Assembly (NCBI GenBank): GCA_944320195.1
Contig: CALUGP010000003.1
Span: forward strand, 96,934-160,933
DNA from: an uncultured Prevotella sp.
Lineage (GTDB): Bacteria > Bacteroidota > Bacteroidia > Bacteroidales > Bacteroidaceae
DNA: 64,000 bases
Reading direction: 5' to 3'
Part shown: positions 4,222 to 60,330 of the stretch, piece by piece
Position numbering within the stretch: the stretch's first letter is position 1
Layout: every line of letters begins with the position of its first letter
The notes under the pieces: generated by a model
Told to the model about the DNA's origin: nothing
Seen by the model: only the letters and a program-made list of their open reading frames with translations
Databases searched by the model: none
Position numbers and translations under genes: made by a program

Positions 4222-4307
4222 TTGCAAAAGGCCGTCTTTTGGCTTGTAAAAGACGGCCTTTCAGCCCGCGATTGACGGCCTTTTGTGCTGCAAAAGGCCG
4301 TCTTTTT
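4222..4307. repeat. GGCCGTC palindromic element, locus 1
   Basis: A perfect hairpin with stem AAAAGGCCGTCTTTT (left) and its complement (right, about 4226-4260) is followed by a second GACGGCC...GGCCGTC unit. It abuts the left end of the terminal-inverted-repeat element at 4308. The same order, about 100 bp of GGCCGTC element then the 277-bp element, occurs at 21026-21385. It lies downstream of the Na/Pi cotransporter (minus strand). Confidence 0.8.
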
Positions 4308-4585
4308 GGTTCATCCGCAAACCTTTTGGATGGACATATGGCTCTCTTAAATGTGACACATTATTTCATTTACAAAAACATCCTGCCATAATCCAAGCTG
4401 TCGGTAACTGTCATTCCGCGCTCCGACGCGGAATCCAGTAAATGCCGCATATGCTGTTTGATGTATAGGATGTTCTCTGGATTCCGCGTCGGAGCGCGGA
4501 ATGACAGTTACCGACAGCCTGGATTAAGGTTGGGTGGTGTTATTAGTAGAACTTATATTTAATCCAAAAGGTTTGCGGATGAACC
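4308..4585. mobile_element. MITE-like element, copy 1 (24-bp terminal inverted repeats, no coding capacity)
   Basis: A 278-bp element is bounded by perfect 24-bp inverted repeats (4308-4331 and 4562-4585; outer end GGTTCATCCGCAAACC). Inside are two 48-nt arms (4391-4438 and 4477-4524) around a 38-nt loop, forming a very stable hairpin built from smaller palindromes such as ATTCCGCGTCGGAGCGCGGAAT. A second copy at 21110-21385 differs by about eleven substitutions and no indels by my reading. No open frame in it resembles a protein. It resembles a non-autonomous element mobilised in trans, but there is no clear target-site duplication and no transposase in the window. Confidence 0.75.
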
Positions 4586-4645
4586 CGTCAATCGGATTGA
4601 AGCGGCGCATGAGTGTTTGGCTGATGACAGTCCATGCGGCATGCG

Positions 4646-4678
4646 AAAACGGCGTTCCGCTTGGCGGAACGCCGTTTT
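4646..4678 (-). terminator. Intrinsic terminator downstream of the Na/Pi cotransporter
   Basis: A perfect 15-bp stem AAAACGGCGTTCCGC / GCGGAACGCCGTTTT has a 3-nt loop. It lies 45 bp past the stop of the minus-strand transporter gene and gives a short U-tract in that direction. Confidence 0.75.
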
Positions 4679-4722
4679 TCCATGTCTGCCACATGCCTTC
4701 GGGGCGTGTGGGGGACAGGGGC

Positions 4723-6417
4723 TTACGCGTCTTTCTGCCTGGTGCCCATGCGCGCCTCGACCACGTTGATCACGTAGTCGCCCAGCTTCTCGCACTCTGA
4801 TATTATGTCCATGTACATCGTTCCGATGGCGTAGGTGTACTCGTTGGCGCTCACGTCGTTGATGTTCTGGCTGCGCAGCTGGTTTCGGTAGTTGTTTATC
4901 TCGTTCTCGATGTTGAACGAGCGGTTCACGTCCAGCTTGTCCTTGCGCCCGGCCAGCATGACGTTCATCTGGGTTAGGCTGTCGTCAGTAAGCTCGAACA
5001 TCTGGTGCAGGTGCTCGTACTGGCTGTCGGTGAAGTCTTCCTTCCCCCTTTCCTTGCGGCTCAGCGTGCGCGCAATGTTGTAGCAGCTGTCGCCGATGCT
5101 CTCAATCTCGGATATCTCGCGCAGCATGGCGCGTATCTTCGCCTTGGTCTCGTCGCTGAGGTGCGCGTTGCTTACGCGGTCGAGGTATTTTGCAATCTCA
5201 ATCTCCATGTTGTCGCTGATGCCCTCATACTTCTCTATTCGGCTGAACAGTTTGTTGAAGTCGGCGTCGTTCTTGGTGTTGAGCAGTTCGCGGACGAAGC
5301 CGAACATCCTCTGCGTCCGCTCGGCGAAGAGCTGTATCTCCTTCTGCGCCTCGAGCACCGACAGCTCGGGAGTCTTCATTATCGTGTCGCCGCCGATGTA
5401 GCGCAGGCGGAATTCGTCGTCGTTCTCTTTTGCCTTGGGTTTGATCATCCAGCACACGGTTTTCTCTATCTGTGGTATCAGCCATATCAGGATGGCGGTA
5501 TTGCAGACGTTGAACGCCGTGTGGAAGGCGGCCAGCACCACCGACAGGCGTGCCGCGTCGAGCACTTGCGTGGACGGGTCGTAGCCCACGATGGAGCACA
5601 CCGTGTTGACGAAAGGATAGAACAGGCACAGCACCCAGAGCACTCCGAACACGTTGAACACCAGGTGTGCCAGCGCGGCGCGGCGCGCCTGGGTGTTTGC
5701 TCCGAGTGCGGCCAGGTTGGCGGTGGCCGTCGTTCCGATGTTCTCTCCCATCACGAGGGCTATTCCGAGGTATATCGGCAGCACCCCGCTCGAGCACAGC
5801 ATCATCGTTATTGCCATCAGCGCGGCCGACGACTGGAGGATGCACGTAAGCACGGTGCCTATCAGCAGGAACACGATTATCGTGGCGTAGCTGCCCGTGT
5901 CGAACGAGCTGAAGAAGCTTATCAGGTCCTGGTTGTGGCCAAGATCCATCTCGTTGCCCGTCTGGCTGAGCAAAGCCAGCGAGAAGAACATGAACGCTAT
6001 GCCGAAAAGAAAGTCGCCGATGTATTTGTGCCGCCGTGTGTAGATGAGCAGTATTCCGACGATGAAGGCGGGAAAGACGGCGTTCATGAAGTTGAACGAG
6101 AAGCCGAGGCTCATTATCCAGGCCGTTAGCGTGGTGCCGATGTTGGCTCCCATTATGACGGAAATGGCCTGGGCAAGGGTCAGGAGGCCGGCGTTTACGA
6201 ACGAGACGGTCATCACCGTGGTGGCCGACGACGACTGCACGGCCGATGTTACGAACATGCCGGTGAACATACCGGTGAACCTGTTTTTGGTCATTGTGCC
6301 CAAGATGTGGCGCAACTGCGAGCCGGCCATCTTCTGCAAGGCCTCGCTCATCACCTTCATTCCGTAGATGAGGAGGGCCAATGACCCGATAATCTTAAAA
6401 AAAATCCAAATCGACAT
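4723..6417 (-). CDS. Na+/phosphate cotransporter with C-terminal PhoU-like domain
   Basis: 564 residues. The N-terminal ~310 residues hold two Na/Pi-cotransporter repeats with the QSS signature twice, in TSAVQSSSATTVMTVSFVNA and in ILQSSAALMAITMML. Each is followed by a GANIGTT- or GENIGTT-type loop, with about eight to nine hydrophobic segments in all. After about residue 330 the protein is helical and charged, with PhoU-like helices (E-I-E-K-Y stretches to residue 550). This transporter-plus-PhoU layout is common in bacteria (NptA/YjbB type). It imports or exports phosphate across the inner membrane. No pst or pho genes flank it. The start is ATG at 6417, and the gene is divergent from the nucleoside kinase. 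Confidence 0.92.
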   Translation of the reverse strand: MSIWIFFKIIGSLALLIYGMKVMSEALQKMAGSQLRHILGTMTKNRFTGMFTGMFVTSAVQSSSATTVMTVSFVNAGLLTLAQAISVIMGANIGTTLTAWIMSLGFSFNFMNAVFPAFIVGILLIYTRRHKYIGDFLFGIAFMFFSLALLSQTGNEMDLGHNQDLISFFSSFDTGSYATIIVFLLIGTVLTCILQSSAALMAITMMLCSSGVLPIYLGIALVMGENIGTTATANLAALGANTQARRAALAHLVFNVFGVLWVLCLFYPFVNTVCSIVGYDPSTQVLDAARLSVVLAAFHTAFNVCNTAILIWLIPQIEKTVCWMIKPKAKENDDEFRLRYIGGDTIMKTPELSVLEAQKEIQLFAERTQRMFGFVRELLNTKNDADFNKLFSRIEKYEGISDNMEIEIAKYLDRVSNAHLSDETKAKIRAMLREISEIESIGDSCYNIARTLSRKERGKEDFTDSQYEHLHQMFELTDDSLTQMNVMLAGRKDKLDVNRSFNIENEINNYRNQLRSQNINDVSANEYTYAIGTMYMDIISECEKLGDYVINVVEARMGTRQKDA

Positions 6418-6442
6418 ATTTTAAATTAATTTGTTGTCGAAC

Positions 6443-6475
6443 GTTGTGCGGTGTCGGGAAAACGGAGTATCTTTA
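6443..6475 (+). promoter_or_regulatory. Candidate promoter of the nucleoside kinase
   Basis: CGTTG (6442-6446) and TATCTTTA (6468-6475) are 21 nt apart. The last base of the -7 box departs from the TAnnTTTG consensus, so this is a moderate candidate. Confidence 0.4.
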
Positions 6476-6504
6476 CCAACGTTTAACCTAAAAGCACGTG
6501 AAAG

Positions 6505-8166: not shown

Positions 8167-8183
8167 GCACACCGGTTGCTTTC

Positions 8184-8270
8184 CGATTGACGGTCTTTTG
8201 CACTGCAAAAGGCCGTCAATGGCACGCTAAAAGGCCGTCTTTCGCACGATGAAAGACGGCCTTTTGCAAA
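8184..8270. repeat. GGCCGTC palindromic element, locus 2
   Basis: Units GATTGACGGTC, AAAAGGCCGTCAATGG and a perfect hairpin AAGGCCGTCTTTC...GAAAGACGGCCTTTT (about 8230-8264) fill the space between the convergent kinase and rhamnosidase genes. The hairpin with flanking A and T runs could terminate transcription both ways. Confidence 0.8.
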
Positions 8271-8336
8271 TCGTTGGATGTCAATGTGTTACGCAGCCAA
8301 GCCTTGGCCGCTCTTTTGGCGGCGGTAACCTATGGT

Positions 8337-11804: not shown

Positions 11805-12014
11805 TGTTTATGGTATTAGTGTGTCCGTCTTGTTGCAAAGTTAACTGTTTTTTGCCGGATTATGCTTGTCAGTTCGTTTTTTTTCGTTTCCCCCGCCTGC
11901 ATTTTCCCGTTGCCCCATGTTTTGCGAGGAGGCCTGTCGGCCGGCTGTGCGGCATGCCTTTGCGGATGGCCTTGCGCACATGTGTGTCAGAGCCGTTGCC
12001 GGCCGTTTTCCGGT

Positions 12015-12095
12015 TTGCGGCCTTTTGCATTCCGAAAGGCCGTTAATTGCAAGCTAAAAGGCCGCCTTTTAAGAGCTAAAAGACGGCCTTTTGCA
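12015..12095. repeat. GGCCGTC palindromic element, locus 3
   Basis: Units TGCGGCCTTTTGCATTCCG, AAAGGCCGTTAATTGCAAG and a hairpin GGCCGCCTTTTAAGAGCTAA with AAAAGACGGCC (about 12055-12092). The rest of the ~320-bp gap between the rhamnosidase start and the dGTPase stop holds nothing else I can recognise. The element lies downstream of the minus-strand dGTPase gene. Confidence 0.75.
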
Positions 12096-12125
12096 TCGCG
12101 CCCTGAAACAAGGTGTTCCGCAAGG

Positions 12126-13469: not shown

Positions 13470-13470
13470 A

Positions 13471-13615: not shown

Positions 13616-13697
13616 CCTTGCGCCGCAAAAGTAATCTAAAAATGGCTAAATTCTTTCTTTTTAGCCGTAAAACAACATCTATGTGAATATAATTCGT

Positions 13698-18472: not shown

Positions 18473-18562
18473 TGCAAAAGGCCGTCTTTCGTCATGCGAA
18501 AGACGGCCTTTTGCGTTGCGTTTTGCGGCCTTTTGGAAGGCGAAAGGCCGTCAATCGCAACA
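18473..18562. repeat. GGCCGTC palindromic element, locus 4
   Basis: A perfect hairpin AAAAGGCCGTCTTTCG / CGAAAGACGGCCTTTT (18477-18515) is followed by TGCGTTGCGTTTTGCGGCC and AAAGGCCGTCAATCGCAA. It lies between the convergent EnvC-like and barrel genes. It is nearly identical over ~80 bp to the element at 21026-21109. Confidence 0.85.
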
Positions 18563-19421: not shown

Positions 19422-21002
19422 ATGAGGAACGCTTTTACAGCAATAATAGTGATACTCTGCGTCACACTAAGTTGCAACGAAAAAGACAAAACGATAGATG
19501 TGCTTGCGCAAATAGACAGCCTCGTCGTCAACGGCGAAACCGACTCGGCATACCAGTGCATCACCAATATGGCACATGACGCACTGGACACAGATGAAGA
19601 AAGTGCATATTACAACTTGTTGTTAACCAAAATCATTTTCACAAGCGACAAGACACCAAGCAATGATTCGCTTATAGACATGAGCATAAAACATTACAAA
19701 AGTACGGGGAACAATGCCAAACTTGCCGAAGCTTACTATTATAAAGGTGGATGCCTTGTGAATCGCGGAAGCCTGGCAGACGGCCTGATGCTCATGAAAA
19801 TGGCTGAAAGCACGGCGAAGAAAACGGGCGACACGAAGCTCCTCATAATGGTATACACCAACATGGCATACATCAACGCCATGCTTGGGACGCCGCTGAC
19901 AGGACTTGAGTATGCAAGAAAAGGACTGGCCGAGGCCGAACGCGCCGACAACATAGACTGGAAATGCATGGCACAGAACAACATCGCCATGTGCCATTAC
20001 TACAGGAAAGACCTCGACAGCGCACTAATATACATGCAAAAAATAGAACCTTATTTAAACATTGTCAGTGAAGACGAACGTGCCCCGTTCATAAACAACA
20101 TCGGTTATCTGTATTCTGAAACTGGATTTTACGGCAAGGCCGAGCCGTTGCTGCGTACAGCGGTGTCACTGCTTCCATGCGCCGTGACTTACACAAGCCT
20201 CGCAAAAAACTGCTACCGGCAAGGGAAAGACCGCGAGGCGGACTCTCTCATGAGGTTGGCCGAACCCTATGCAGACTTTGAGACCAAGGCTGAGATGTGC
20301 CAGTTCCTGGCTGAACGTGCCGAGCGCAAGGGCGACTATGAGGCCGCTTCAAGGCTTTACCGGCAGGCGAAGGCCATGCAGGACAGCATGGAAGCTCAGC
20401 GGCCGACTGAGGAGACGGTGACGATGCAGCGCGAATATGAGCATAAGGAGTATGCCGAAGGCGTGAAGAGCAAGGAGACTGCGGGCATCGTCATGGCCGC
20501 GCTTGCCGTGGCCGTGCTGGCGGCTGCGGGCGTGTCGTTCCACCGGAAGACGCTTAACCGTGCCAAAAGAACCATCGCCGAGGCCGACCGCAAGATAAAG
20601 GAACACACCGAGAGGGTAGCCGCGCTGGAGCGGCAGGACAGCCGCCACGCCCGCGAGGCCAAGGAGCTGGAGCGAAAGATACGCCGCCTGAAGGACGAAC
20701 AGGCGGCCGTGATAAACAGCGGCAAGGCCCTTTATGACGGCATCATGGCCGGAGGCACCACGGCAACGTGGAAGAAGAAGGACTTTGACGAGTTCATAGA
20801 GTATTACCGCACGCGCCGCCCCGAGGCCGTGGCCGAGGCGGAAGAGGGATACAGCCGCCTCTCGTCGACAAACATTTTCTATCTGATGCTGGCCGACATG
20901 GGTGTGACGGGCGACGACATGCGCCGCATACTGTGCCTCACGGACGGTGCGCTGCGCACGATGAGGTCGCGGATAAAGTCACGGAAGAAGTCGGCTTCTT
21001 AA
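19422..21002 (+). CDS. Membrane-spanning TPR protein with C-terminal coiled coil and HTH-like domain
   Basis: 526 residues. Residues 1-18 form a lipobox-type signal (CVTLSC, C18). Residues 30-325 are TPR-like helices. A transmembrane segment lies at about 355-374, a coiled coil at about 378-435, and a C-terminal domain at 445-526 ends in LADMGVTGDDMRRILCLTDG and a basic tail. That end resembles the LuxR-type HTH found at the same place in many Bacteroidales TPR regulators. The likely topology is periplasmic TPR sensor, inner-membrane helix and cytoplasmic DNA-binding end. The start at 19422 is preferred over a TTG seven codons upstream. DNA binding is inferred, and the regulated genes are unknown. 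Confidence 0.75.
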   Translation: MRNAFTAIIVILCVTLSCNEKDKTIDVLAQIDSLVVNGETDSAYQCITNMAHDALDTDEESAYYNLLLTKIIFTSDKTPSNDSLIDMSIKHYKSTGNNAKLAEAYYYKGGCLVNRGSLADGLMLMKMAESTAKKTGDTKLLIMVYTNMAYINAMLGTPLTGLEYARKGLAEAERADNIDWKCMAQNNIAMCHYYRKDLDSALIYMQKIEPYLNIVSEDERAPFINNIGYLYSETGFYGKAEPLLRTAVSLLPCAVTYTSLAKNCYRQGKDREADSLMRLAEPYADFETKAEMCQFLAERAERKGDYEAASRLYRQAKAMQDSMEAQRPTEETVTMQREYEHKEYAEGVKSKETAGIVMAALAVAVLAAAGVSFHRKTLNRAKRTIAEADRKIKEHTERVAALERQDSRHAREAKELERKIRRLKDEQAAVINSGKALYDGIMAGGTTATWKKKDFDEFIEYYRTRRPEAVAEAEEGYSRLSSTNIFYLMLADMGVTGDDMRRILCLTDGALRTMRSRIKSRKKSAS

Positions 21003-21025: not shown

Positions 21026-21109
21026 CAAAAGGCCGTCTTTCGTCGTGCGAAAGGCGGCCTTTTGCGTTGCGTTTTGCGGCCTTTTGCATTCCAAAAGGCC
21101 GTCAATCGT
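21026..21109. repeat. GGCCGTC palindromic element, locus 5
   Basis: A hairpin AAAAGGCCGTCTTTCG / CGAAAGGCGGCCTTTT is followed by TGCGTTGCGTTTTGCGGCC and CCAAAAGGCCGTCAATCG. It is joined directly to the second MITE-like copy. The preceding 20 bp (GTTGATAATCAGCG) also resemble those before locus 1. It lies between the convergent TPR/HTH and recO genes. Confidence 0.85.
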
Positions 21110-21385
21110 GTTCATCCGCAAATCTTTTGGATGGACATATGGCTCTATCAAATGTGACACATTATTTCATTTACAAATACATCCTGCCATAATCCAGGCA
21201 GTCGGTAACTGTCATTCCGCGCTCCGACGCGGAATCCAGTAAATACCGCATATGCTGTTTGATGTATAGGATGTTCTCTGGATTCCGCGTCGGAGCGCGG
21301 AATGACAGTTACCGACCGCCTGGATTAAGGTTGGATGGTGTTATTAATAGAACTTATTTTTAATCCAAAAGGTTTGCGGATGAAC
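21110..21385. mobile_element. MITE-like element, copy 2
   Basis: This is the second copy of the element at 4308-4585. The outer ends GTTCATCCGCAAATC and the inverted GTTTGCGGATGAAC form 23-bp terminal repeats with one mismatch. The internal 48-nt arms are at 21192-21239 and 21278-21325. It contains no protein-like frame. Together with element locus 5 it accounts for most of the 439-bp gap between the TPR/HTH gene and recO. Confidence 0.75.
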
Positions 21386-21441
21386 CGCCAATCAGGAATT
21401 GGTTTACGGGAGGGCGGTTGCCGGTCGGGCGAAAGGCCGTG

Positions 21442-22167
21442 TCAGTCGAACAGCTCCTTTAACACCGGCAGCGACTTCAGTTCGGGAAAATCGGGCACGT
21501 GTATCTGGTAATACCTTAATATGATGTCGGCCATGTGGCCCCGTTCCGTGCGCGACATCTTGTAGAGATGCATCGTGGCGTAGTTCATCCTGAGCAGCAG
21601 CTTTATCTTCTCGGCCTCTTCCGGGGGCAGGCAGTCGGCGTGCGTTGGCGCGTCCGTGCGGAAGCAGCTGGCGCGGAGGTCGAAGCGGCAGCCTGCGGTG
21701 TAGCCGTCGAGATTGGGGTAGAAGCCGAGGAACCTGGCCAGGCGCATCATGAAAACAAGGTGGAAGTTGGCGAAGTGCGAGGCGCATCCGTCGAGCCACA
21801 TCACGCTGTTCTCCACGTAGGCGAAGAGCGTCTCGTCGGCCAGCTCGCCCCTTGTCGCGCTGCGCAGGAACTCCGCCGTGAACATGGCTATTGCCAGTTT
21901 CGGCGGGCTGAAGGGTATCGACGTGAAGGGCACGGCCACCCGCGCCTCCTTGAGTCGCTGCAGGCGGGAGCGCTGGCGCAGGTCTATCACGGCCTCTATG
22001 ATGAAAAGCGGCTGGAAATATTGCTTCTTCAGCTTTGCCTTCGGCGACTTGGACAGCGTGGCGATGCATGCCACCCGGCCGTGGCCGGCTGTGAGCAGGT
22101 CTACTACGGTCTTCGTCTCGCCGTATCTGAATGAGTGCAGCACGATGGCCCTTGTGGTTACAAGCAT
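21442..22167 (-). CDS. recO: DNA repair protein RecO
   Basis: 241 residues from the ATG at 22165-22167. An in-frame TTG 14 codons upstream is less likely. The OB-fold N-terminus is typical (TTRAIVLHSFRYGETKTVVD...LLTAGHGRVACIA), followed by the helical domain (YVENSVMWLDGCASHFANF HLVFMMRLARFLGFYPN) and a cysteine-poor C-terminal part, as is usual in this phylum. RecO loads RecA onto SSB-coated single-stranded DNA with RecR. The gene is divergent from tRNA-Glu. Confidence 0.92.
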   Translation of the reverse strand: MLVTTRAIVLHSFRYGETKTVVDLLTAGHGRVACIATLSKSPKAKLKKQYFQPLFIIEAVIDLRQRSRLQRLKEARVAVPFTSIPFSPPKLAIAMFTAEFLRSATRGELADETLFAYVENSVMWLDGCASHFANFHLVFMMRLARFLGFYPNLDGYTAGCRFDLRASCFRTDAPTHADCLPPEEAEKIKLLLRMNYATMHLYKMSRTERGHMADIILRYYQIHVPDFPELKSLPVLKELFD

Positions 22168-22285
22168 GTCGTAAGTGTTGTAATGGTTGTGATTGTGAAG
22201 GTCGGCCAAAAGCCTTCCTTATGTGGTTTGAACCATGCAAAAATACACAAAAATAAGCTGTGTGCGAGAAAAAATGGCGAAAAAG

Positions 22286-22963: not shown

Positions 22964-24937
22964 ATGGCAGAAATTCAGAACAACGAGAACAATTATTCGG
23001 CCAGTAACATCCAGGTGCTCGAGGGCCTGGAGGCGGTGCGCAAGCGCCCGGCGATGTACATAGGCGACATCAGCGAGAAAGGTCTGCACCACTTGGTCAA
23101 CGAGACCGTGGACAACTCCATCGACGAGGCCATGGCCGGATATTGTACCCATATAGAAGTTACAATCAACGAGGACAACTCTATCACCGTGCAGGACAAC
23201 GGCCGAGGAATCCCCGTAGACGAACACGAGAAGCTGCACAAGTCGGCGTTGGAAGTCGTAATGACCGTGCTCCACGCCGGAGGCAAGTTTGACAAAGGCT
23301 CTTACAAGGTGTCTGGCGGCTTGCACGGCGTGGGTGTTTCGTGTGTCAACGCCCTGTCGACGCACATGCTTTCGCAGGTGTTCCGCGACGGCAAGATATA
23401 CCAGCAGGAATATGAGAAGGGCAAGCCCCTGTACCCCGTGAAGGTGGTAGGCGAGACGGAGTTGCGCGGCACGCGCCAGCAGTTCTGGCCGGATCCCACG
23501 ATCTTCACTACCACTCTTTATAAATACGACATCATCGCCAAGCGCATGCGTGAGCTTGCTTACCTCAACGCCGGCATAAAAATCACGCTTACCGACCTTC
23601 GTCCGGATGAAGAGGGGCACACGAAGCAGGAGGTGTTCCACGCCGTTGACGGCCTCAAGGAGTTCGTCCGCTACATCGACCGCCACCGCACGCACCTCTT
23701 CGACGATGTGATATATCTCAAGACCGAGAAGCAGGGCATACCCATCGAGGTGGCCGTGATGTACAACACCGACTATTCGGAGAACATCCACTCTTACGTC
23801 AACAACATCAACACCATCGAGGGAGGCACACACCTCGTGGGATTCCGCATGGCCCTGACCTCGACTCTTAAGAAGTACGCCGACAACGACCCGGCAATCT
23901 CGAAGCAGATAGAGAAAGCCAAGATTGAAATAGCCGGCGAAGACTTCCGCGAAGGACTGACCGCCGTAATATCGATAAAGGTGGCCGAGCCGCAGTTCGA
24001 GGGCCAGACGAAGACCAAGCTGGGTAACAGCGAAGTGACGGGAGCCGTGCGCCAGGCCGTCTCTGAGGCCCTTTCATACTATCTGGAAGAGCACCCGAAG
24101 GAGGCGAAGATGATATGCGACAAGGTGATTCTCGCCGCCACGGCGCGCATCGCGGCGCGAAAGGCGCGTGAAAGCGTGCAGCGCAAGAATCCCATGAGTG
24201 GCGGAGGACTGCCTGGAAAACTGGCCGACTGCTCTAACAAAGACCCCAAGGAATGCGAGATTTTCCTTGTCGAGGGAGACTCTGCGGGCGGCTCCGCCAA
24301 GCAGGGACGCAACCGCTTCACGCAGGCCATACTGCCTTTGAGGGGTAAAATCCTGAACGTTGAGAAAGTGATGTGGCACAAGGTGTTCGAGAGCGAGTCG
24401 GTAATGAACATCATCCAGAGCATCGGCGTGCGCTTTGGCGTTGACGGCGAGGACGACAAGGAGGCAAACATCGACAAGTTGCGCTACGACAAAATCATCA
24501 TAATGACCGACGCCGATGTCGATGGTTCGCACATCGACACGCTGATAATGACGCTCTTCTACCGCTTCATGCCGAAAGTTATACAGGAAGGCCACTTGTA
24601 CATAGCCACGCCGCCGCTTTACCTCTGCACGTATAAGAACAAGGTCAAAGAGTACTGCTACACCGACCAGCAGCGCCAGGCGTTCCTCGACAAGTATGGA
24701 GAGGGTGTGGACGACGGCAAGAACATACACACACAACGCTACAAAGGTCTTGGTGAGATGAATCCCGAGCAGCTCTGGGAGACTACCATGAACCCTGAGA
24801 CGCGCCTTCTCAAACAGGTTACGATAGAGAATGCGGCCGAGGCCGACGAGATATTTTCCATGCTCATGGGCGACGATGTGGAGCCGCGCCGCCAGTTTAT
24901 TGAGCAGAACGCCACTTACGCCAACATCGACGCATGA
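22964..24937 (+). CDS. gyrB: DNA gyrase subunit B
   Basis: 657 residues. The GHKL ATPase domain has VLEGLEAVRKRPAMYIG, VNETVDNSIDEAMAGY, VQDNGRGIPVDEHEK and a glycine-rich lid (VSGGLHGVGVSCVNALS). A transducer domain is followed by the TOPRIM domain with FLVEGDSAGGSAKQGRN and IIMTDADVDGSHIDTL. The C-terminal RYKGLGEMNPEQLWETTM is typical. This is the short GyrB form without the enterobacterial insertion. With GyrA it introduces negative supercoils. The start at 22964 (MAEIQNN) is chosen over a TTG two codons upstream. dnaA and gyrA are not nearby. Confidence 0.98.
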   Translation: MAEIQNNENNYSASNIQVLEGLEAVRKRPAMYIGDISEKGLHHLVNETVDNSIDEAMAGYCTHIEVTINEDNSITVQDNGRGIPVDEHEKLHKSALEVVMTVLHAGGKFDKGSYKVSGGLHGVGVSCVNALSTHMLSQVFRDGKIYQQEYEKGKPLYPVKVVGETELRGTRQQFWPDPTIFTTTLYKYDIIAKRMRELAYLNAGIKITLTDLRPDEEGHTKQEVFHAVDGLKEFVRYIDRHRTHLFDDVIYLKTEKQGIPIEVAVMYNTDYSENIHSYVNNINTIEGGTHLVGFRMALTSTLKKYADNDPAISKQIEKAKIEIAGEDFREGLTAVISIKVAEPQFEGQTKTKLGNSEVTGAVRQAVSEALSYYLEEHPKEAKMICDKVILAATARIAARKARESVQRKNPMSGGGLPGKLADCSNKDPKECEIFLVEGDSAGGSAKQGRNRFTQAILPLRGKILNVEKVMWHKVFESESVMNIIQSIGVRFGVDGEDDKEANIDKLRYDKIIIMTDADVDGSHIDTLIMTLFYRFMPKVIQEGHLYIATPPLYLCTYKNKVKEYCYTDQQRQAFLDKYGEGVDDGKNIHTQRYKGLGEMNPEQLWETTMNPETRLLKQVTIENAAEADEIFSMLMGDDVEPRRQFIEQNATYANIDA

Positions 24938-24949
24938 TGTAAAGGTGGG

Positions 24950-25050
24950 AAGGTGAGAAAGTAAGAAGGTGAGAAAGAAGTGCTGAAATGCAGCAATCTT
25001 TCTCACCTTCTTACTTTATTTGTTTCTTACTTTCTCACCTTCTCACTTTC
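24950..25050. repeat. Repeated AGGTGAGAAAGTAAGAA units forming a long imperfect palindrome
   Basis: Units of the type AAGGTGAGAAAGTAAGAAGG occur about twice in direct orientation (24950-24978) and about four times inverted (24997-25050), separated by a CTGAAATGCAG stem-loop. The repeat touches the stop codon of the OPT gene. Its position between convergent gyrB and OPT genes suggests a transcriptional or decay barrier. Confidence 0.65.
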
Positions 25051-27036
25051 TCACCTTTTCTTTGTTGCCTTTATGAAGTAAGTAATCAGCAGCACATAAG
25101 CAACGAGCGCGCACACCTGTGACAGCGGATTGGCGAGCCATTCGGCGTTGACGAGGTTTATGTCGGCGAAGCGAAGCAGTGCGCTTACCACTCCCATGAG
25201 CGCTCCTCCGGCAATGAATCCGCTGGCGATGAGCGTGCCTTTCTCTCCGCGCGCCTTGTTTTCGTCGGCGTTCTTGGAGCGTGATGTGACGTACCAGTTG
25301 ATCGCTCCGCCCACGAGCAGCGGTATGTTAAGCTCTATCGGGATGAACATGCCGAGGGCGAAGGCCAGTGCCGGCACCTTGCAGAGCGTAAGGACGATGG
25401 CTATCAGTGCGCCAATGCCGTAGAGAATCCACGGCGCGCCCACGCCGTTCATCAGCGGATCTATTACCGCGGCCATGGCGTTGGCTTGCGGGGCGGCCAG
25501 CTGTCCGCTGGCGAATCCGTATGTCTTGTCGAGCAGAATCATCACTCCGCCTACGGTTGCGGCTGAAACCAGAGTGCCGAGGAACTTCCATGTCTCCTGT
25601 TTCTTTGGCGTTGTGCCGAGCCAGTAGCCAATCTTAAGGTCGGTGATGAACGCTCCCGACATTGACAGGGCGGTACAAACCACGCCGCCCATGATGAGCG
25701 CGGCGACCATGCCGCCGGTGCCTTTCAGGCCTACGGCCACCATTACCACCGAGGCGAGGATGAGCGTCATGAGCGTCATTCCCGACACGGGGTTGGTGCC
25801 TACGATGGCAATTGCGTTGGCGGCGACGGTGGTGAAGAGGAATGCTATCACCGCGACGAGCAATATGCCGACTGCGGCGAAAAGCAGGTTGCCCTTCATC
25901 ACGCCGAACCAGAAGAACAGGAACACTACCAGGAGCGTTGCTATCGCGCCTATGGCTATGATCTTGAACGGTATGTCGCGTTGTGTGCGGAGCGCCTGTT
26001 TGCCGTCTTTCTTGCCTCCTCGCATCTCGCGTGCGGCCAGGCCGACGGCGTTCTTTATTATTCCCCACGAGTTTATTATTCCTATCACGCCGGCCATGGC
26101 TATGCCGCCGATGCCGATGTATTTGCCGTAATAGGTGAATATGTCCTCGGGCGACATGTCACCTACGGCCGTTGTTATGGCCGGGTCCCACTGGTTGAGC
26201 ACCTGCCCGTCGAACAGCACGGCCATTACGGGCACGATGAGCCACCACACTGCCAGCGAGCCGAGGCAGATGATGAGGGCGTACTTCAGGCCGACGATGT
26301 AGCCGAGGCCGAGCACTGCCGCGCCGGTGTTGACCTTGAACACGAGCTTCGCCTTGTCTGCCAGCTGCTCGCCGAGGCCTATCACGCGCGTGGTGAAGTT
26401 CTCGTTCCACCAGCCGAAGGTGGCCACGATGAAGTCATACAGTCCGCCCACCAGTCCGGCCAGCAGCAGCGGCTTGGCCTGCTGTCCGCCCTTGGCTCCG
26501 CTTACGAGCACCTGCGTGGTGGCTGTAGCCTCGGGGAACGGGTACTTGCCGTGCATGTCGCTGACGAAATACTTGCGGAAGGGTATGAGGAACAGTATGC
26601 CCAGCACGCCTCCCAGGAGCGAGCTTAGGAATATCTCGAGGAACGACGCGCCCATGCCGGGGTACTTGTCTTCAAGGATGTAGATTGCCGGCAGGGTGAA
26701 TATCGCGCCGGCCACAACCGCTCCCGAGCATGCGCCGATGCTCTGGATGATGACGTTCTCGCCGAGCGGGTTGCGCCTTTTCGCGGCGGTTGACACTCCC
26801 ACGGCTATGATGGCGATGGGGATGGCGGCCTCGAACACCTGTCCCACGCGCAGGCCCAGGTATGCGGCGGCGGCCGAGAAGAGCATCGTCATGAGCACGC
26901 CCCACGTCACCGACCAGCCGTTCACTTCCGGGTAGGCCTTGCGCGGGTCCATCACGGGGCGGTACTCCTCGCCCTCTTTCAGTTCGCGGAATGCGTTGTC
27001 TGGCAGCCGCACTCCGTCTTTTTCCAAGTCTTCCAT
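25051..27036 (-). CDS. OPT family oligopeptide transporter
   Basis: 661 residues with about sixteen hydrophobic segments. Characteristic OPT features are NGWSVTWGVLMTMLFSAAAA, KYPFPEATATTQVLVSG, the NPVSGMTLMTLI stretch and the KVPALAFALGMFIPIELN motif. The family moves small peptides or metal chelates, coupled to protons. I chose the ATG at 27034-27036 (MEDLEKDG) because it follows an AT-rich, GAAAGA-containing leader. An in-frame start 17 codons further upstream is possible. The C-terminus (FIKATKKR) is basic and cytoplasmic. The substrate cannot be told from sequence. Confidence 0.93.
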   Translation of the reverse strand: MEDLEKDGVRLPDNAFRELKEGEEYRPVMDPRKAYPEVNGWSVTWGVLMTMLFSAAAAYLGLRVGQVFEAAIPIAIIAVGVSTAAKRRNPLGENVIIQSIGACSGAVVAGAIFTLPAIYILEDKYPGMGASFLEIFLSSLLGGVLGILFLIPFRKYFVSDMHGKYPFPEATATTQVLVSGAKGGQQAKPLLLAGLVGGLYDFIVATFGWWNENFTTRVIGLGEQLADKAKLVFKVNTGAAVLGLGYIVGLKYALIICLGSLAVWWLIVPVMAVLFDGQVLNQWDPAITTAVGDMSPEDIFTYYGKYIGIGGIAMAGVIGIINSWGIIKNAVGLAAREMRGGKKDGKQALRTQRDIPFKIIAIGAIATLLVVFLFFWFGVMKGNLLFAAVGILLVAVIAFLFTTVAANAIAIVGTNPVSGMTLMTLILASVVMVAVGLKGTGGMVAALIMGGVVCTALSMSGAFITDLKIGYWLGTTPKKQETWKFLGTLVSAATVGGVMILLDKTYGFASGQLAAPQANAMAAVIDPLMNGVGAPWILYGIGALIAIVLTLCKVPALAFALGMFIPIELNIPLLVGGAINWYVTSRSKNADENKARGEKGTLIASGFIAGGALMGVVSALLRFADINLVNAEWLANPLSQVCALVAYVLLITYFIKATKKR

Positions 27037-27314: not shown

Positions 27315-27315
27315 T

Positions 27316-27424
27316 CAAAAGGCCGTCAATCGCAATGCGAAAGGCCGTCAATCGCAATGCGAAAGGCCGTCAATCGCAATGCAAAAGGCCGTCTTTCAGC
27401 GTGTAAAAGGCGGCCTTTTGCGGG
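27316..27424. repeat. GGCCGTC element, locus 6, with a 22-bp tandem repeat
   Basis: The 22-bp unit AAAGGCCGTCAATCGCAATG plus CG is repeated three times head to tail (about 27317-27384, the last unit diverging at its end). A hairpin AAAAGGCCGTCTTTC / AAAAGGCGGCCTTTT follows. This is the clearest case of unit amplification in the family. Upstream, 27037-27280 shows nothing I recognise. It lies downstream of the minus-strand sirtuin gene. Confidence 0.85.
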
Positions 27425-36197: not shown

Positions 36198-36284
36198 CCA
36201 AAAGGCCGTCTTTCGCATTGTGAAAGACGGCCTTTTGCATTGTAAAAGACCGTTAACGGCAAGGCGAAAGGCCGTCAATCGCAA
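36198..36284. repeat. GGCCGTC palindromic element, locus 7
   Basis: A perfect hairpin AAAAGGCCGTCTTTCGCA / TGAAAGACGGCCTTTT is followed by GTAAAAGACCGTTAACGGC and GCGAAAGGCCGTCAATCGC. It begins 38 bp after the M28 stop and could end that transcript before the susC promoter region. Confidence 0.85.
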
Positions 36285-42618: not shown

Positions 42619-42648
42619 TGGCGCAGTGCTAAGCCCGGTTTGTAAGAG

Positions 42649-42719
42649 ACGGCAAAACGCAATGCGAAAGACGGCGAATCGCGCTGTGATTTGCCGTCTT
42701 TCGCATTGCGTTTTGCCGT
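42649..42719. terminator. Long perfect hairpin, variant GGCCGTC element (locus 8)
   Basis: Arms ACGGCAAAACGCAATGCG + AAAGACGGC and their exact complement form a stem of about 27 bp with a short interrupted loop. It lies between the convergent small-protein and radC genes. It lacks the GGCC core but shares the AATGCGAAAGACGGC phrase with the other elements. It is probably a bidirectional terminator. Confidence 0.75.
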
Positions 42720-42803
42720 GTTTTGGAAAGCCTGCTTTCCCCGTTGCGGTTCAGGTCAGGCGCGGAGCCGCTTCTTAAGCCTGTTTGTCCGTGTAACGGC
42801 CGT

Positions 42804-50857: not shown

Positions 50858-50972
50858 TGTTCTTTGCCGTGTGTTTTTTTGCAAAAAACATGAAAAACAC
50901 GTCTCCTTGTGTCACAAAAGCGGCCTTCTTGCGTAATAAGGGTAAACGTATAACACATTAAAACGTAATATC

Positions 50973-52058: not shown

Positions 52059-52094
52059 ATCCATCAGCCTTTTAACCGGCTGCAGACGCATTAC

Positions 52095-53079: not shown

Positions 53080-53091
53080 AAAGAAACCGCA

Positions 53092-53505: not shown

Positions 53506-53507
53506 TT

Positions 53508-53595
53508 TTGCAAGAGACGGCTTTCCGCCTTCCCAAAGGCCGTCTTTGGCATGCTAAAAGGCCGCCTATCGCAACGCGAAAGACGGCCTTTTGTA
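53508..53595. repeat. GGCCGTC palindromic element, locus 9
   Basis: AAGAGACGGCTTTCC, AAAGGCCGTCTTTGGC, TAAAAGGCCGCCTATCGCAA and GAAAGACGGCCTTTTG lie in succession. The outer units form a hairpin. It lies between the convergent DUF5024 and MORN/GH25 genes, starting 3 bp after the DUF5024 stop. Confidence 0.8.
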
Positions 53596-53641
53596 ATGGC
53601 AGACATAACTGCCTGGCTTACAAGGCATTCCGGCTTGTCTG

Positions 53642-55851: not shown

Positions 55852-55870
55852 GTGTAGTGCTTTTTTCTTG

Positions 55871-57175: not shown

Positions 57176-57361
57176 TTCCGTATTGTAGTTTTTATGTTTT
57201 TTGGTCTTGCTTGATTTTAGTGTGTCTTGACGGACTTAATGTGCCGCGAAAGTACAAAAAAACATTCATAGACGTGCGTGTTTGTAGCAATTTATTCACT
57301 TTTCTGTGAAAATGTTGTGCCTTGAGGTAGAATGTTTACATGTTTTCAGGTTTTTCTTTAG

Positions 57362-57369
57362 TAACTTTG
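57362..57369 (+). promoter_or_regulatory. -7 box of the MalY-type lyase gene
   Basis: TAACTTTG fits the consensus, 34 bp before the chosen ATG. No clear -33 element. A minus-strand TACTTTCG (57247-57254) could serve ino1. Confidence 0.45.
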
Positions 57370-57402
57370 CGGCATGCAAGTGTAACTTATTATAATAATG
57401 TA

Positions 57403-58578
57403 ATGGCAAGATTTGATTTTGACGAGATTGTTGACCGCAGGGGCACTGATTGCCTGAAGTGGGACGGCGGAGAGGTGGACGGCGTGCTGCCGATGTGGGT
57501 TGCGGACATGGATTTCCGCACTGCGCCGTGTGTGACAGAGGCTTTGCGCAAGAGGGTTGACCACGGCGTGTTCGGTTATGAGCATGTGCCTGACTCGTAT
57601 TACGAGGCCGTAATCAACTGGTTCGGCCGCCGGCACGGATGGCGCATGCGGCGCGAGTGGATGATATATACCAGCGGAGTGGTGCCCGCCGTGTCGGCGG
57701 TGATAAAGGCGATGACCTCTCCCGGCGACAAGGTGCTTGTGCAGACACCGGTGTACAACTGCTTTTTTTCTTCGATAAGGAACAACGGATGTGTCATGGA
57801 AGACAACAAGCTGGTCTATGCCGACGGCACCTACACCATTGACTTTGAGGACTTCGAGCGGCGTGCTGCCGACCCACAGGTAAAGGTGTTCCTGCTCTGC
57901 AATCCTCACAATCCGGCCGGCCGGGCGTGGACTCCGGCCGAACTTGGGCGCATGGGCGACATCTGCATGCGGCACGGTGTGTTCGTCTTGTCTGACGAGA
58001 TACACTGCGACATCGTGATGCCGGGCTACAGGTACACTCCGTTCGCATCGCTTTCAGAAGAGTTCCTGATGCATTCGGCCACGTGTACCGCGCCGACAAA
58101 GACCTTCAACATTGCCGGTACGCAGATTGCAAACATAACGGCTGCAGACGAGGATGTGCGCAGCCGCATTGACAGGGCCATCAACATAAACGAGGTCTGC
58201 GATGTTAATCCGTTCGGGGTGACGGCTCTTCAGGCGGCGTACAACCACGGCGAGGAGTGGCTGGAGCAGCTGCTTGCATATCTGCACGGCAACTACGAGT
58301 GCCTGAAAAGGTATTTCGAGGAGAACATTCCGCAGATTCCGGTTACCAAGCTTGAGGCCACTTACCTTGTATGGCTTGACTGCTCGGCCATCGGCAAGCC
58401 GTCCAAGGTCATTACGGACGAACTGTTGCATGGGCATAAGCTATGGCTTAACGACGGTGAGATGTACGGGGAGCACGATCGCCCATTCGTCCGCGTGAAC
58501 ATAGCCTGTCCGCGTTCGCTGATGCTTGAGGGACTTAAACGGTTTGAACGGTATGCCAGGGAGGAACTGGGAAGATAA
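57403..58578 (+). CDS. MalY/PatB family PLP-dependent aminotransferase (cystathionine beta-lyase-like)
   Basis: 391 residues from the ATG at 57403 (MARFDFDEIVDRRGTDCLKW). Fold-type I PLP enzyme with the MalY/PatB N-terminus (GVLPMWVADMDFRTAPCV), VQTPVYNCFFSSIRNNG, LCNPHNPAGRAWTP, the SDEIHCDIV aspartate, and the PLP lysine in APTKTFNIAG. Family members cleave cystathionine or cysteine conjugates to a thiol, pyruvate and ammonia, and the E. coli member also represses maltose genes. The true substrate here is not known. It is monocistronic and ends in the palindrome at 58583. Confidence 0.92.
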   Translation: MARFDFDEIVDRRGTDCLKWDGGEVDGVLPMWVADMDFRTAPCVTEALRKRVDHGVFGYEHVPDSYYEAVINWFGRRHGWRMRREWMIYTSGVVPAVSAVIKAMTSPGDKVLVQTPVYNCFFSSIRNNGCVMEDNKLVYADGTYTIDFEDFERRAADPQVKVFLLCNPHNPAGRAWTPAELGRMGDICMRHGVFVLSDEIHCDIVMPGYRYTPFASLSEEFLMHSATCTAPTKTFNIAGTQIANITAADEDVRSRIDRAININEVCDVNPFGVTALQAAYNHGEEWLEQLLAYLHGNYECLKRYFEENIPQIPVTKLEATYLVWLDCSAIGKPSKVITDELLHGHKLWLNDGEMYGEHDRPFVRVNIACPRSLMLEGLKRFERYAREELGR

Positions 58579-58582
58579 GAAA

Positions 58583-58696
58583 TTAAAGAAGTTATAGGAG
58601 TCAAAGAAGCCAAAGCCGTATGTTTTGCCAGTTGAATGAATGCGCAACCGACAAAACATACGGATTTGGCTTCTTTGACTCCTATAACTTCTTTAA
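58583..58696. repeat. Long near-perfect palindrome between convergent genes
   Basis: Two 45-nt arms (58583-58627 and 58652-58696) are exact inverses except for one base, around a 24-nt loop. The left arm starts TTAAAGAAGTTATAGGAGTC and the inner end is CCGTATGTTTTG. It lies 4 bp after the MalY-type stop and 14 bp before the murF stop, thus in a convergent gap. The arms lack a canonical U-tract, but such a stem would block polymerase or protect both transcripts' ends. Confidence 0.85.
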
Positions 58697-58710
58697 AATC
58701 CTAAAAAAGC

Positions 58711-60009
58711 TTACAGCCACTCCTTCAGCTCTGACAGGTGTATGGAGTTGCTGCCTTTTATCAGTATGCAGAAGCCTTCGGGACGGTGGGCTTCAATGGC
58801 TTTCTTCACTTCGTCCACATTGTTGAACTTGCGGAACGTGCAGTTTGTCTTGCCGAACTCCGGCCCTACGAGCCACACTTTGTCAAATCCCGCACTTTTA
58901 AGGAAGTCCGCCGTGCGCTGATGTTCCTCCGCGCTGACGGCTCCCAGCTCGTTCATGTCGCCGAGGATGGCCATCTTCTTGCCTGCCTTCATGTCGCGGA
59001 AGTTTGCCAGGGCGGCCGCCATGCTTGTGGGGTTGGCGTTGTATGCGTCGATGATGAGGCTGTTGTGAGCGGTGCGTTCCAGCTCGGAGCGGTTGTTGCG
59101 GGGCACGTATGACGCGAGGGCGTGGTCCACCTGCCCGGGTGTCACCTCGAAATATAGTCCCACGCAGGCGGCGGCGAGCATGTTCATCAGGTTGTAGCTG
59201 CCTATGATGTGTGTGCCGATGTTGTGCCAAGGCCCGTCCTCCGCGCGCCAGCGGAAGTTGAGGTAGGGGTCGCATGCGGTCACTTCGCCGTTCACTTCGG
59301 TGTCGGCCACGCCGCTCATGCCGTATTTGATGCGTATCAGCGAGCCGGCAATGTCGCTGAGTATCGGGTCGCCGGCGTTGATGAACACCTTTTTGCCGTG
59401 GTCGCGCAGGTAGTCATACAGCTCGCCTTTGGTGCGCACCACGCCCTCGAACGAGCCGAAGCCCTGCAGGTGGGCGCGTCCCACGTTGGTTATCAGGCCG
59501 TAGTCTGGCTCTACGATGTCCACCAGAGTCTTGATGTCTCCGGGATGGCTTGCGCCCATTTCAATCACGGCTATCTCGTGTTCCTTCGTCAGCCGCAGCA
59601 GCGTTTTCGGCACGCCGATGTCGTTGTTGAAGTTTCCTTGGGTGTAGAGCACGTTGTACTTTTCGCCCAGCACGGCGGCGATAAGCTCCTTGGTGGTGGT
59701 CTTGCCGTTGGTGCCGGTTATCCCGATTATCCTTGTTCCGAGTGCGCGGCGGTGGTGATTGGCCAGGCGTTGCAGTGTCTTAAGGCAGTCGTCCGTCAGA
59801 ATGTAGCGGCCGTCGCCTTCTTCGGCGTACTGTTTCTCGTCAACTACTGCGTATGCGCAGCCCTGTTCCAAGGCCTTCTTCGCGAACGCGTTGCCGTTGA
59901 ACGACGCGCCTTTCAAAGCGAAGAACATGGAGCCTTCGGGGCAGTCGCGGCTGTCGGTTGTCACAACCGGGTGCTCCGTAAAGATTTTGTAAAGTTCAGA
60001 TATGTCCAT
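58711..60009 (-). CDS. murF: UDP-N-acetylmuramoyl-tripeptide--D-alanyl-D-alanine ligase
   Basis: 432 residues from the ATG at 60007-60009 (MDISELYKIFTEHP). The three Mur ligase domains are visible: the N-terminal UDP-binding domain (about 1-95, DSRDCPEGSMFFALKGASFN), the ATPase domain with GITGTNGKTTTKELI and the carbamylated-lysine region (ANVGRAHLQGFGS-like), and the C-terminal domain with IIDAYNANPTSMAAALANF and ILGDMNELG. It adds D-Ala-D-Ala from Ddl (gene at 47852) to the UDP-MurNAc tripeptide. It is alone, not in a dcw cluster, and is expressed from tandem repeat-borne promoters. Confidence 0.97.
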   Translation of the reverse strand: MDISELYKIFTEHPVVTTDSRDCPEGSMFFALKGASFNGNAFAKKALEQGCAYAVVDEKQYAEEGDGRYILTDDCLKTLQRLANHHRRALGTRIIGITGTNGKTTTKELIAAVLGEKYNVLYTQGNFNNDIGVPKTLLRLTKEHEIAVIEMGASHPGDIKTLVDIVEPDYGLITNVGRAHLQGFGSFEGVVRTKGELYDYLRDHGKKVFINAGDPILSDIAGSLIRIKYGMSGVADTEVNGEVTACDPYLNFRWRAEDGPWHNIGTHIIGSYNLMNMLAAACVGLYFEVTPGQVDHALASYVPRNNRSELERTAHNSLIIDAYNANPTSMAAALANFRDMKAGKKMAILGDMNELGAVSAEEHQRTADFLKSAGFDKVWLVGPEFGKTNCTFRKFNNVDEVKKAIEAHRPEGFCILIKGSNSIHLSELKEWL

Positions 60010-60030
60010 TTTTACATTCTTTATGCGGTG

Positions 60031-60198
60031 CAAAGATAGTGCAAGCCGAGTGGAATGCAAAATAAAACGGCGTGAAACGACGTTTTATTTTCGTTCCCGA
60101 GGCGCAGCCTATTTTATCCAAAGATAGTGCAAGCCGAGTGGAATGCAAAATAAAACGGCGCGAAACGACGTTTTATTTTCAATCCCGAGGCGCAGCCT
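60031..60198 (-). promoter_or_regulatory. Tandem 88-bp repeat carrying two complete promoters for murF
   Basis: An 80-bp unit (60031-60110 and 60119-60198, period 88) differs at only a few bases between copies. On the minus strand each unit contains TTTG, a 19-nt spacer and TATCTTTG (copy 1: 60058-60061 and 60031-60038; copy 2: 60146-60149 and 60119-60126), an exact consensus match. Each also contains the hairpin AAAATAAAACG / CGTTTTATTTT just upstream of and overlapping the -33 box, and the phrase GGCTGCGCCTCGGGA at its upstream end. The proximal promoter gives a leader of about 15 nt to the murF ATG. Confidence 0.8.
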
Positions 60199-60236
60199 TC
60201 AGTAACTTGCTTATTTACAGACGGTTACGGATGCGG

Positions 60237-60330
60237 TTGCAAAAGACCGTCTTTTGCCTCGTAAAAGGCCATCTTTTGCAAGGCGAAAGACGGCCTTTTG
60301 CAGCCCGTTTTGCCGTCTTTTGCAAAACAG
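60237..60330. repeat. GGCCGTC palindromic element, locus 10
   Basis: GCAAAAGACCGTCTTTTG, GTAAAAGGCCATCTTTTGC, GGCGAAAGACGGCCTTTTGC and TTTTGCCGTCTTTTGC occur in a row. Unlike the other loci this one lies between divergent genes (murF and folP), upstream of both. From 60331 to folP only AT-rich promoter-type sequence is seen. Confidence 0.8.

Follow-up and report, generated by a model that had tools for sequence, protein, structure and literature searches.

What are the GGCCGTC palindromes that recur between the genes of an uncultured Prevotella sp., and do they serve as stop signals at gene ends, travel as mobile elements or mark sites on the chromosome? We address this question starting from a stretch of 64,000 nucleotides (assembly GCA_944320195.1, contig CALUGP010000003.1, positions 96,934 to 160,933; hereafter the window), in which an initial annotation had listed ten related elements and proposed a spreading family that doubles as bidirectional terminators or protectors of mRNA 3' ends. 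All ten are found where they were listed, with the sequences given: nine are arrays of GGCCGTC units and one, at 42649, is a variant. The units lie on a 22-bp lattice, arrays form twin hairpins in which compensatory change is seen, and the family is intergenic, persists at orthologous gaps and carries prevailing cores that are specific to lineages. The array architecture is probably under selection, and a likely function of the copies at gene ends is bidirectional termination or 3'-end protection. As a complete account, a structured intergenic element family shared by a clade, with gene-end copies acting as bidirectional terminators or 3'-end hairpins, has in our estimation a marginally better than even chance of being right, judged as it is from sequence comparison.

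Units on a 22-bp lattice

The genome comprises 2.84 Mb in 61 contigs. Besides genome-wide counts, we analysed a sample of 461 kb (the window plus 20 further stretches, 16% of the genome) and a survey set of seven genomes, consisting of our own and its relatives G415, G081, G004, G069, G418 and G419. With at most one mismatch allowed, the window has 47 matches to the unit AAAGGCCGTC, where 4.7 would be expected (100 shuffles, maximum 11). The genome-wide search recommended along with the initial annotation yields 662 exact units (339 + 323) against 7 (4 + 3) for the reversed pattern, and an exact 35-bp hairpin has 95 copies versus none for the reversed control. Self-palindromic units with 8-bp arms were almost never found in a strict scan, which was abandoned.

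The units had been described as strung together by short linkers. They are present as described, but the geometry requires correction, since they follow a 22-bp lattice regardless of orientation. Measured from the start of the 13-bp core in either orientation, and for unit matches lying at most one base off a multiple of 22 from another match, 155 of 195 neighbour spacings in the 461-kb sample are exactly 22, with one each at 21 and 23; a further 21 are 0 (both strands of one site) and 17 are 44, 65, 66 or 67. The AAT ending reported for the unit (GTCAATCGC) is likewise present, with the amendment that it is matched by an ATT at the start of the pairing unit (ATT in u4, numbering units u1 to u4). 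With only the A/T frame fixed (AAA-N7-TTT-N9-AAA-N7-TTT), 223 cases are found in stretches of 19 genomes, compared with 21 for a linker of 8, 23 for a linker of 10 and at most 7 for other linkers; 60 of the 223 have perfectly complementary cores, 21 of these cores being distinct.

Under the same 22-bp requirement, we called 69 arrays in the 461-kb sample, the commonest orientation string being <>>< (16 of 69), followed by ><< (11 of 69). Of the 148 arrays in the seven genomes, 82 consist of exactly four units. An array often ends in TTTTGCAA, a few bases and then approximately YTGRYTRTCAR-N3-GTTAC, fuller copies of which form a dyad, GTAAC..CTG-N5-CAG..GTTAC. This dyad stands on one or both sides of 69 of the 148 arrays, i.e. 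about half, against a background of 0.4% of consecutive 60-bp windows on one strand, two windows being read per array. That the right-hand motif might be an independent Bacteroidales repeat was considered and rejected: TTGATTATCA..TTA is modestly frequent in the order and tied to arrays in our own sample, where 7 of 7 strict matches lie at most 21 bp from an array. By eye, no 22-bp array adjoined the eight TTGATTATCA..TTA sites examined in G033. Elsewhere in our genome, a single tandem gap on contig C1 (stretch L105, 10663-11688) holds an exceptionally long run of direct 22-bp units (AAAGGCCGTGAATCGCACACCG-like).

Twin hairpins and compensatory change

How do the units of an array pair with one another? 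Permutation within genomes reveals excess pairing for u2 with u1 (z 3.5; 25 perfect pairs versus 14) and for u4 with u3 (z 2.6; 9 versus 4.8), and no excess for any other pairing (u3-u2, z -1.2; u3-u1, 0.9; u4-u2, 0.2; u4-u1, -0.1). Covariation gives the same arrangement. In an alignment of 44 of the 45 oriented arrays with at least four units (one G069 array, one base out of register, was omitted), 21 of 30 pairs have changed on both sides, and cells changed on both sides number 106 against 46.8 after shuffling, none of 500 shuffles being as high, although rows may include orthologues so that cells are not independent. Sliding abolishes the signal, and in the same alignment compensatory change for the alternative middle pairing is no better than in shuffles. 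The pattern supports two tandem hairpins for four-unit arrays, with a stem of up to 15 bp and a 5-nt loop.

In the window, all ten elements fold better than 200 shuffles (z from -4.4 to -14.2, one strand each), and those at 4222, 8184, 12015, 18473, 21026 and 53508 fold as two hairpins. The elements and two adjoining dyads are listed below, with a strand where one is assigned.

4198..4217, minus strand: dyad GTAAC..TTGAGAATCAG (plus-strand letters) at the hairpin end of the 4222 array; dyad detected on that side
4227..4305: four-unit array, tandem gap, downstream of a Na/Pi cotransporter gene (4723-6417, minus strand); two hairpins, -50.0 kcal/mol, z -6.8
8186..8264: convergent gap, array of four units; folds into twin hairpins, -52.5 kcal/mol, z -8.0
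8274..8292, plus strand: dyad TTGGATGTCAATGTGTTAC adjoining the 8184 array, from its sequence and dyad detection on that side
12013..12091: tandem gap, array of four units of which the first is degenerate; two hairpins, z -4.6
18477..18555: convergent gap, array of four units of which the third is degenerate; two hairpins, z -8.5; G415 also has an array at the orthologous gap
21028..21106: array of four units of which the third is degenerate, in the convergent gap bounded by the stops of 19422-21002 (plus strand) and recO (21442-22209, minus strand); two hairpins, z -8.9; a dyad adjoins the low-coordinate side
27318..27418: tandem gap, array of five units, four direct ones followed by an inverted one; a single strong hairpin, z -4.4; arrays in the orthologous gap of G415, G004 and G081
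36201..36279: tandem gap, array of four units of which the third is degenerate; a single strong hairpin, z -5.1; array in the orthologous gap of G415
42646..42722: variant with units on the 22-bp lattice, convergent gap; one long nested hairpin, -65.9 kcal/mol, z -14.2
53513..53591: four-unit array, convergent gap; two hairpins, z -4.7; arrays in the orthologous gap of G415, G004 and G069 (other core), an ordinary terminator-like hairpin in G418
60242..60298: three-unit array, divergent gap; one nested hairpin, z -10.2; array-like units in the corresponding gaps of G081 and G004 (2.9-kb gap)

At the 53508 gap, G069 has four units with another core, the first unit reversed and the last two a facing pair. 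With our own simple gene calls, the initial count of nine elements downstream of a stop codon and five in convergent gaps is right for the window: 8184, 18473, 21026, 42649 and 53508 are convergent, 4222, 12015, 27316 and 36198 tandem, and 60237 divergent.

Old sites, lineage-specific cores

Have the arrays spread recently in this genome? A general array detector, which sets a few arrays off by one base (for instance at 36200 in the window) and misses the 42649 variant, returns 135 arrays per Mb in our genome, 174 in G415, 128 in G081, 111 in G004, 129 in G069 and 182 in both G418 and G419, the last two figures resting on 44 and 21 kb with 8 and 4 arrays. Our own density extrapolates to about 380 arrays genome-wide. 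As general density is alike in relatives, an expansion peculiar to our genome was rejected, and we attribute the contrast between 662 exact units here and 62 in G081 to a difference in prevailing core. Exact GGCCGTC units number 479 in G415 and 337 in Marseilla massiliensis An824 (G414), which also bears the hairpin; of 398 genus genomes, only 7 hold it in its exact 35-bp form. Queried with one array, plasmids and phages gave no match, nor did viral contigs queried with one exact 35-bp dialect only.

Control periods of 20 and 24 also give the detector some signal (21 and 36 in our genome versus 62 at 22), which we ascribe to slippage of A/T runs; periods 18, 19, 21, 23, 25 and 26 give 0-4 in our genome. 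A core-blind scan of periods 16-30 counts, at 22, 56 matches in our genome, 17 in G415, 14 in G081, 11 in G004, 8 in G069, 7 in G418 and 1 in G419, with other periods at no more than 3 per genome. More distant members of the genus have 4 (G001), 6 (G003), 1 (G010), 2 (G012), 1 (G016) and 2 (G017) matches at 22; none was found in G007, G009, G019 and G020 or in G026 and G038 from other families, a weak absence given samples of 20-40 kb each. Some core-blind matches look by eye like plain or A+T-rich tandem repeats (e.g. L199 4151, L209 7612 and, in G081, L192 12428). Stretches L200 and L201 (G003) and L198 and L199 (G001) contain 22-bp arrays of wholly different palindromic units (CACCATGGTG, CTAAGTATCATACTTAG, TAATCAGGTGCTGATTA), with several kinds per genome.

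In either orientation, the prevailing core is GGCCGTC in our genome (48% of 235 units) and in G415 (38%), GGCCGCC in G081 (32%), GGTTACC in G418 (31%) and GGGCATC in G069 (14%). Different cores co-occur within one genome in G003 and G418.

Sites, by comparison, are shared. At gaps of 60-3000 bp between conserved neighbour pairs, an array is present in both genomes in 16 cases, only in ours in 6, only in the relative in 2 and in neither in 104 (p=1e-13); comparisons share gaps, so that the figures per relative are safer. In the same order these are 7, 1, 1 and 26 for G415 (p=9e-6), 5, 2, 0 and 26 for G081 (p=9e-5), 3, 2, 0 and 27 for G004 (p=0.002), 1, 0, 0 and 9 for G069 (p=0.1), 0, 1, 1 and 8 for G418 (p=1) and 0, 0, 0 and 8 for G419. 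At least one "relative only" case results from a missed detection: at gap 242, array units are visible by eye in our own genome. Two gaps occupied in our genome (219 and 225) hold no array in G081, and one of the two holds none in G004 either; gains or losses therefore do occur, the gaps being too diverged for element ends to be read. Near-identical paralogues were not found among 33 four-unit arrays of the 461-kb sample, the best matches agreeing at no more than 67 of 79 bases (median 63).

Do orthologous units also retain their letters? Out of 7 core positions, orthologous units agree at 5.73 in G415 (22 pairs) and 5.50 in G004 (8 pairs), higher than the values for random units within genomes, 5.13 and 5.55 and, for the second, 5.12 and 4.69. 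In G081 (17 pairs) agreement is 5.24, compared with 5.29 and 5.31 within genomes and 4.73 across, and in G069 (4 pairs) it is 3.75, lower than the within-genome values of 5.38 and 4.54. As orthologous units in G081 and G069 are no more alike than random units of the same genome, we tentatively suggest that homogenisation of units within genomes may override descent at longer distances. It is conceivable, if on the whole rather doubtful, that what is conserved is an architecture and not a sequence: four units, a 22-bp ruler, two covarying hairpins and the dyad at the same gene borders, with the 7-bp core rewritten genome-wide in the dialect of each lineage. Such a pattern would imply either a reader acting in trans, whether a protein or an RNA, that evolves together with the core, or a homogenising mechanism.

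A different possibility is a selfish element of the kind exemplified by repetitive extragenic palindromes (REPs) or miniature inverted-repeat transposable elements (MITEs), moved by some enzyme and visible only where insertion is harmless, away from starts. Arrays do avoid genes (none of 148 lies in coding sequence) and the neighbourhood of starts (at least 95 bp to the closest predicted start in divergent gaps), the dyad could supply an element end, and gaps 219 and 225 show occupied and empty states. However, similar densities and shared sites in near relatives, the lack of near-identical copies among the 33 arrays, covariation, and hairpin quality that depends on context (see below) all argue against mobility, as do the absence of Y1_Tnp from 7 of 13 genomes searched (G000, G094, G414, G418, G003, G012 and G017) and the different palindrome that follows the four RAYT-type genes examined (RAYT, REP-associated tyrosine transposase). 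We consider a selfish element unlikely. The "spreading element" of the initial annotation finds no support, at least as regards recent spread, because density is similar in near relatives, arrays recur at orthologous gaps and no paralogue among the 33 sampled arrays exceeds 67 of 79 bases. The arrays look like old, inherited two-way stop signals whose core differs between species rather than like a recent spreader.

Placement and the case for terminators

Genes were called with a simple predictor (coding fraction 78%), so that gap classes and distances to starts carry some error. The 148 arrays of the seven genomes divide into 72 in tandem, 32 in divergent and 26 in convergent gaps and 18 at edges, with none in predicted genes; the 69 arrays of our own sample comprise 37 tandem, 18 divergent, 7 convergent and 4 at stretch edges, plus 3 in genes that are probably chance matches. 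Considering gaps of at least 100 bp, arrays occupy 26 of 69 convergent, 32 of 91 divergent and 69 of 282 tandem ones.

Several patterns point to a function at gene ends. Arrays in tandem gaps are closer to the upstream stop in 62 of 72 cases (median 57 versus 218 bp, p=2.7e-10). The best stem, scored out of 15, averages 14.1 in convergent gaps (11 of 26 perfect), 12.7 in tandem gaps (13 of 72) and 11.4 in divergent gaps (0 of 32), the difference between convergent and divergent being significant (p=2.8e-7); relatives alone give 14.4, 13.1 and 11.1 (p=4.6e-6 and 1e-3). Further, another terminator-like hairpin is present at 7 of 45 convergent ends with an array versus 54 of 109 without (p=6e-5), a contrast slightly favoured by the somewhat smaller search space outside an array. 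It is from the closeness of tandem arrays to the upstream stop, from stem quality by gene orientation and from this scarcity of other terminators at convergent array ends that we conclude in favour of terminators or protectors, so that the bidirectional role originally proposed gains indirect support. We envisage that the typical element, mostly four near-palindromic units of about 13 bp on the 22-bp lattice with two tandem hairpins and, in about half of cases, a dyad at one end, would act on RNA at gene 3' ends, its hairpins serving as bidirectional intrinsic terminators, as barriers to exonucleases at the 3' end, or both. Selection would keep hairpins well paired there, and copies in divergent gaps might be tolerated or block stray transcription.

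A number of observations weigh against this interpretation. Divergent gaps hold 32 of 130 classified arrays, so that the claim that nearly all elements lie at gene 3' ends fails beyond the window. At tandem ends, other terminators are not rarer where an array is present (13 of 61 versus 70 of 253, p=0.34), and here the proposed role draws no support. In our own genome alone the stem contrast is weaker (convergent 13.4, tandem 12.3, divergent 11.7; 8 convergent versus 17 divergent, p=0.036; convergent versus tandem, p=0.33). Four of the ten window elements do not fold as twin hairpins, with one strong hairpin at 27316 and 36198 and nested ones at 42649 and 60237. The stem is followed by a short U-run (3-4 in most cases, by eye) that is mostly paired with the A-run, a strict search for a hairpin plus T-run succeeds inside the array at only 39 of 106 ends (17 of 45 convergent, 22 of 61 tandem), and dyad polarity is unrelated to the direction of transcription (18 versus 16). 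Lastly, on the sense strand of tandem arrays G-U does not clearly exceed A-C (105 versus 79, p=0.065; per element 22 versus 13, p=0.18), which gives no clear preference for action on RNA over action on DNA.

Might the arrays, then, be sites on DNA, dimers phased by about two helical turns and bound by a nucleoid protein, gyrase or a replication or recombination factor, with the core tracking the protein? The 22-bp period persists with unrelated cores, a single core prevails per genome, the dyad is indifferent to transcription, copies occur in divergent gaps and, outside tandem gaps, G-T and A-C are about equal (20 and 20 convergent, 43 and 42 divergent), all of which fit such a site. That hairpin perfection tracks gene orientation would be unexpected for a pure DNA site, however, and G003 and G418 contain several cores. 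This makes a DNA-level site distinctly improbable to our minds. Short uptake or recognition signals with species dialects, akin to DNA uptake sequences, would account for hundreds of unit copies, for inverted pairs at gene ends and for dialects; GCCGTCT presumably resembles the Neisseria uptake sequence. But uptake sequences also lie in genes, where none of the 148 arrays is found, and need neither a 22-bp lattice nor four units, so that we give this idea very little credence.

If, instead, bidirectional terminators or 3'-end hairpins are the right interpretation, many gene ends in a group of gut bacteria would consist of a single ancient, modular twin-hairpin element with parts that change together. 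They would then constitute a natural experiment on the rewriting of hundreds of dispersed signals in a genome without moving them, and would supply candidate bidirectional terminators for engineering Bacteroidales.

Adjoining elements and other repeats

Two window arrays adjoin a separate, MITE-like palindromic element:

4308..4585: MITE-like element, 278 bp, end repeat GGTTCATCCGCAAACC, beside or in the 4222 array
21110..21386: second copy, adjoining the 21026 array

Further copies lie at L112 10568-10867, L113 5504-5650, L116 2048-2369, L120 15762-16061 and, in G415, L182 2199-2453. The element measures 147-322 bp and has ends GGTTCATCCGCA. Array-like sequence was seen by eye at an end of all seven copies with both ends located, two of which show 8-bp direct repeats (TCGATTGC, CCTTTCGC); other copies stand away from any detected array, e.g. 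L116 13621-13870. Inside the element is a palindrome, TGTCATTCCGCGCTCCGACGCGGAATCCAG (e.g. around 4390-4520 in the window; another version in the G415 copy), which we take to resemble a dRS3-type repeat. Beside the divergent array at 60237, the window contains a direct repeat (AATAAAACGGCGTGAAACGACGTTTTATTTTCGTTCCCGAGGCGCAGCC-like, two copies, 60061-60190), with a matching pair in G004. A long purine-rich inverted repeat (AAGGTGAGAAAGTAAGAAGG...) follows gyrB at 24937-25055, and its arms match many places in the relatives searched, often as plus/minus pairs.

Y1_Tnp has no match in our genome. Relatives yielded seven matches, of which six were examined (all except that of G001); arrays lie about 370 bp or more from the open reading frame at three of these loci and are absent from the stretch of about 4 kb at the other three. 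L218, L219, L220 and L222 (G081, G419, G069 and G415) each encode a RAYT-type Y1 transposase of about 175-183 aa in a similar gene neighbourhood (by eye), with a GTAG-tagged palindrome, GTAGGGACATAATTCATTATGTCC, directly after the gene; this palindrome was not found in our 461-kb sample. A GTAG system exists beside the array family in relatives and serves as a useful control. A RAYT/REPIN system as the mover of the arrays was rejected, given no Y1_Tnp of our own and another palindrome after the relatives' genes.

Comparison with known systems

The initial annotation knew of no named family with this unit. In agreement, Rfam covariance models run on the window with E up to 1 gave five matches, none overlapping an array, and searches of open-licence literature, directed in part at related families, gave no description of the family. 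REPIN/RAYT systems consist of dispersed inverted palindrome pairs, which the arrays share; unlike these systems, our genome is without Y1_Tnp, and relatives' RAYT-type genes are not followed by arrays. Bidirectional intrinsic terminators present an A-run, a G+C-rich stem, a small loop and a T-run in convergent gaps. The arrays have the same components in the same setting but differ in having two hairpins per element, a fixed lattice, one prevailing core genome-wide and copies in divergent gaps as well.

Within the Bacteroidota, the available part of one report describes FopS, a Bacteroides small RNA family of 14 members with a conserved single-stranded 5' seed and one terminator hairpin; like the arrays FopS is multicopy and mostly intergenic, and that part of the report makes no mention of a 22-bp lattice (PMC11697453). 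The BrickBuilt MITE of Porphyromonas gingivalis is comparable in layout, and the accessible part of its description has intergenic arrays of 22-23 bp units with flanking modules: 23-nt direct repeats, a long leader and tail, terminal inverted repeats shared with insertion sequence elements and 19 copies in one strain (PMC4596501). Set against that partial account, our family is alike in being Bacteroidales intergenic arrays of near-equal unit length; it differs in its 22-bp units, with inverted ones in most arrays, its twin hairpins and far more copies. Among periods 16-30 it is 22 that stands out, not the 23-nt direct repeat of BrickBuilt, and no terminal inverted repeat was seen by eye in aligned array flanks.

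The arrays also resemble REPs and bacterial interspersed mosaic elements (BIMEs), and we regard them as a variant of that kind in which tests for the GTAG/CGTC tag and for a RAYT failed. As far as the sections of the review at hand go, GTAG/CGTC REPs and BIMEs are high-copy palindromic intergenic repeats, with inverted pairs and some species-specific families, located mostly near stops where genes are convergent or tandem; in the CGTC class the stem measures 8-9 bp and the loop 4-5 nt, a dedicated transposase is lacking, and the five phyla reported to contain it include Bacteroidetes (Di Nocera 2013, PMC3733652). An unpaired GTAG tag is absent from all 296 six-base array flanks and an unpaired CGTC tag occurs in 1 of the 296; in our own core the CGTC is part of the paired stem, and G081, G418 and G069 have other prevailing cores. 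On inspection, a single unit with half linkers could fold into about 8 bp with a 5-nt loop, but covariation favours pairing between units, up to 15 bp. By that portion of the review, the arrays match GTAG/CGTC REPs in being high-copy, palindromic and intergenic with inverted pairs, and depart from them in their four-unit 22-bp lattice, in the dyad at one end of about half of them, in the quarter that lie in divergent gaps, and in a core that varies by lineage while the sites stay.

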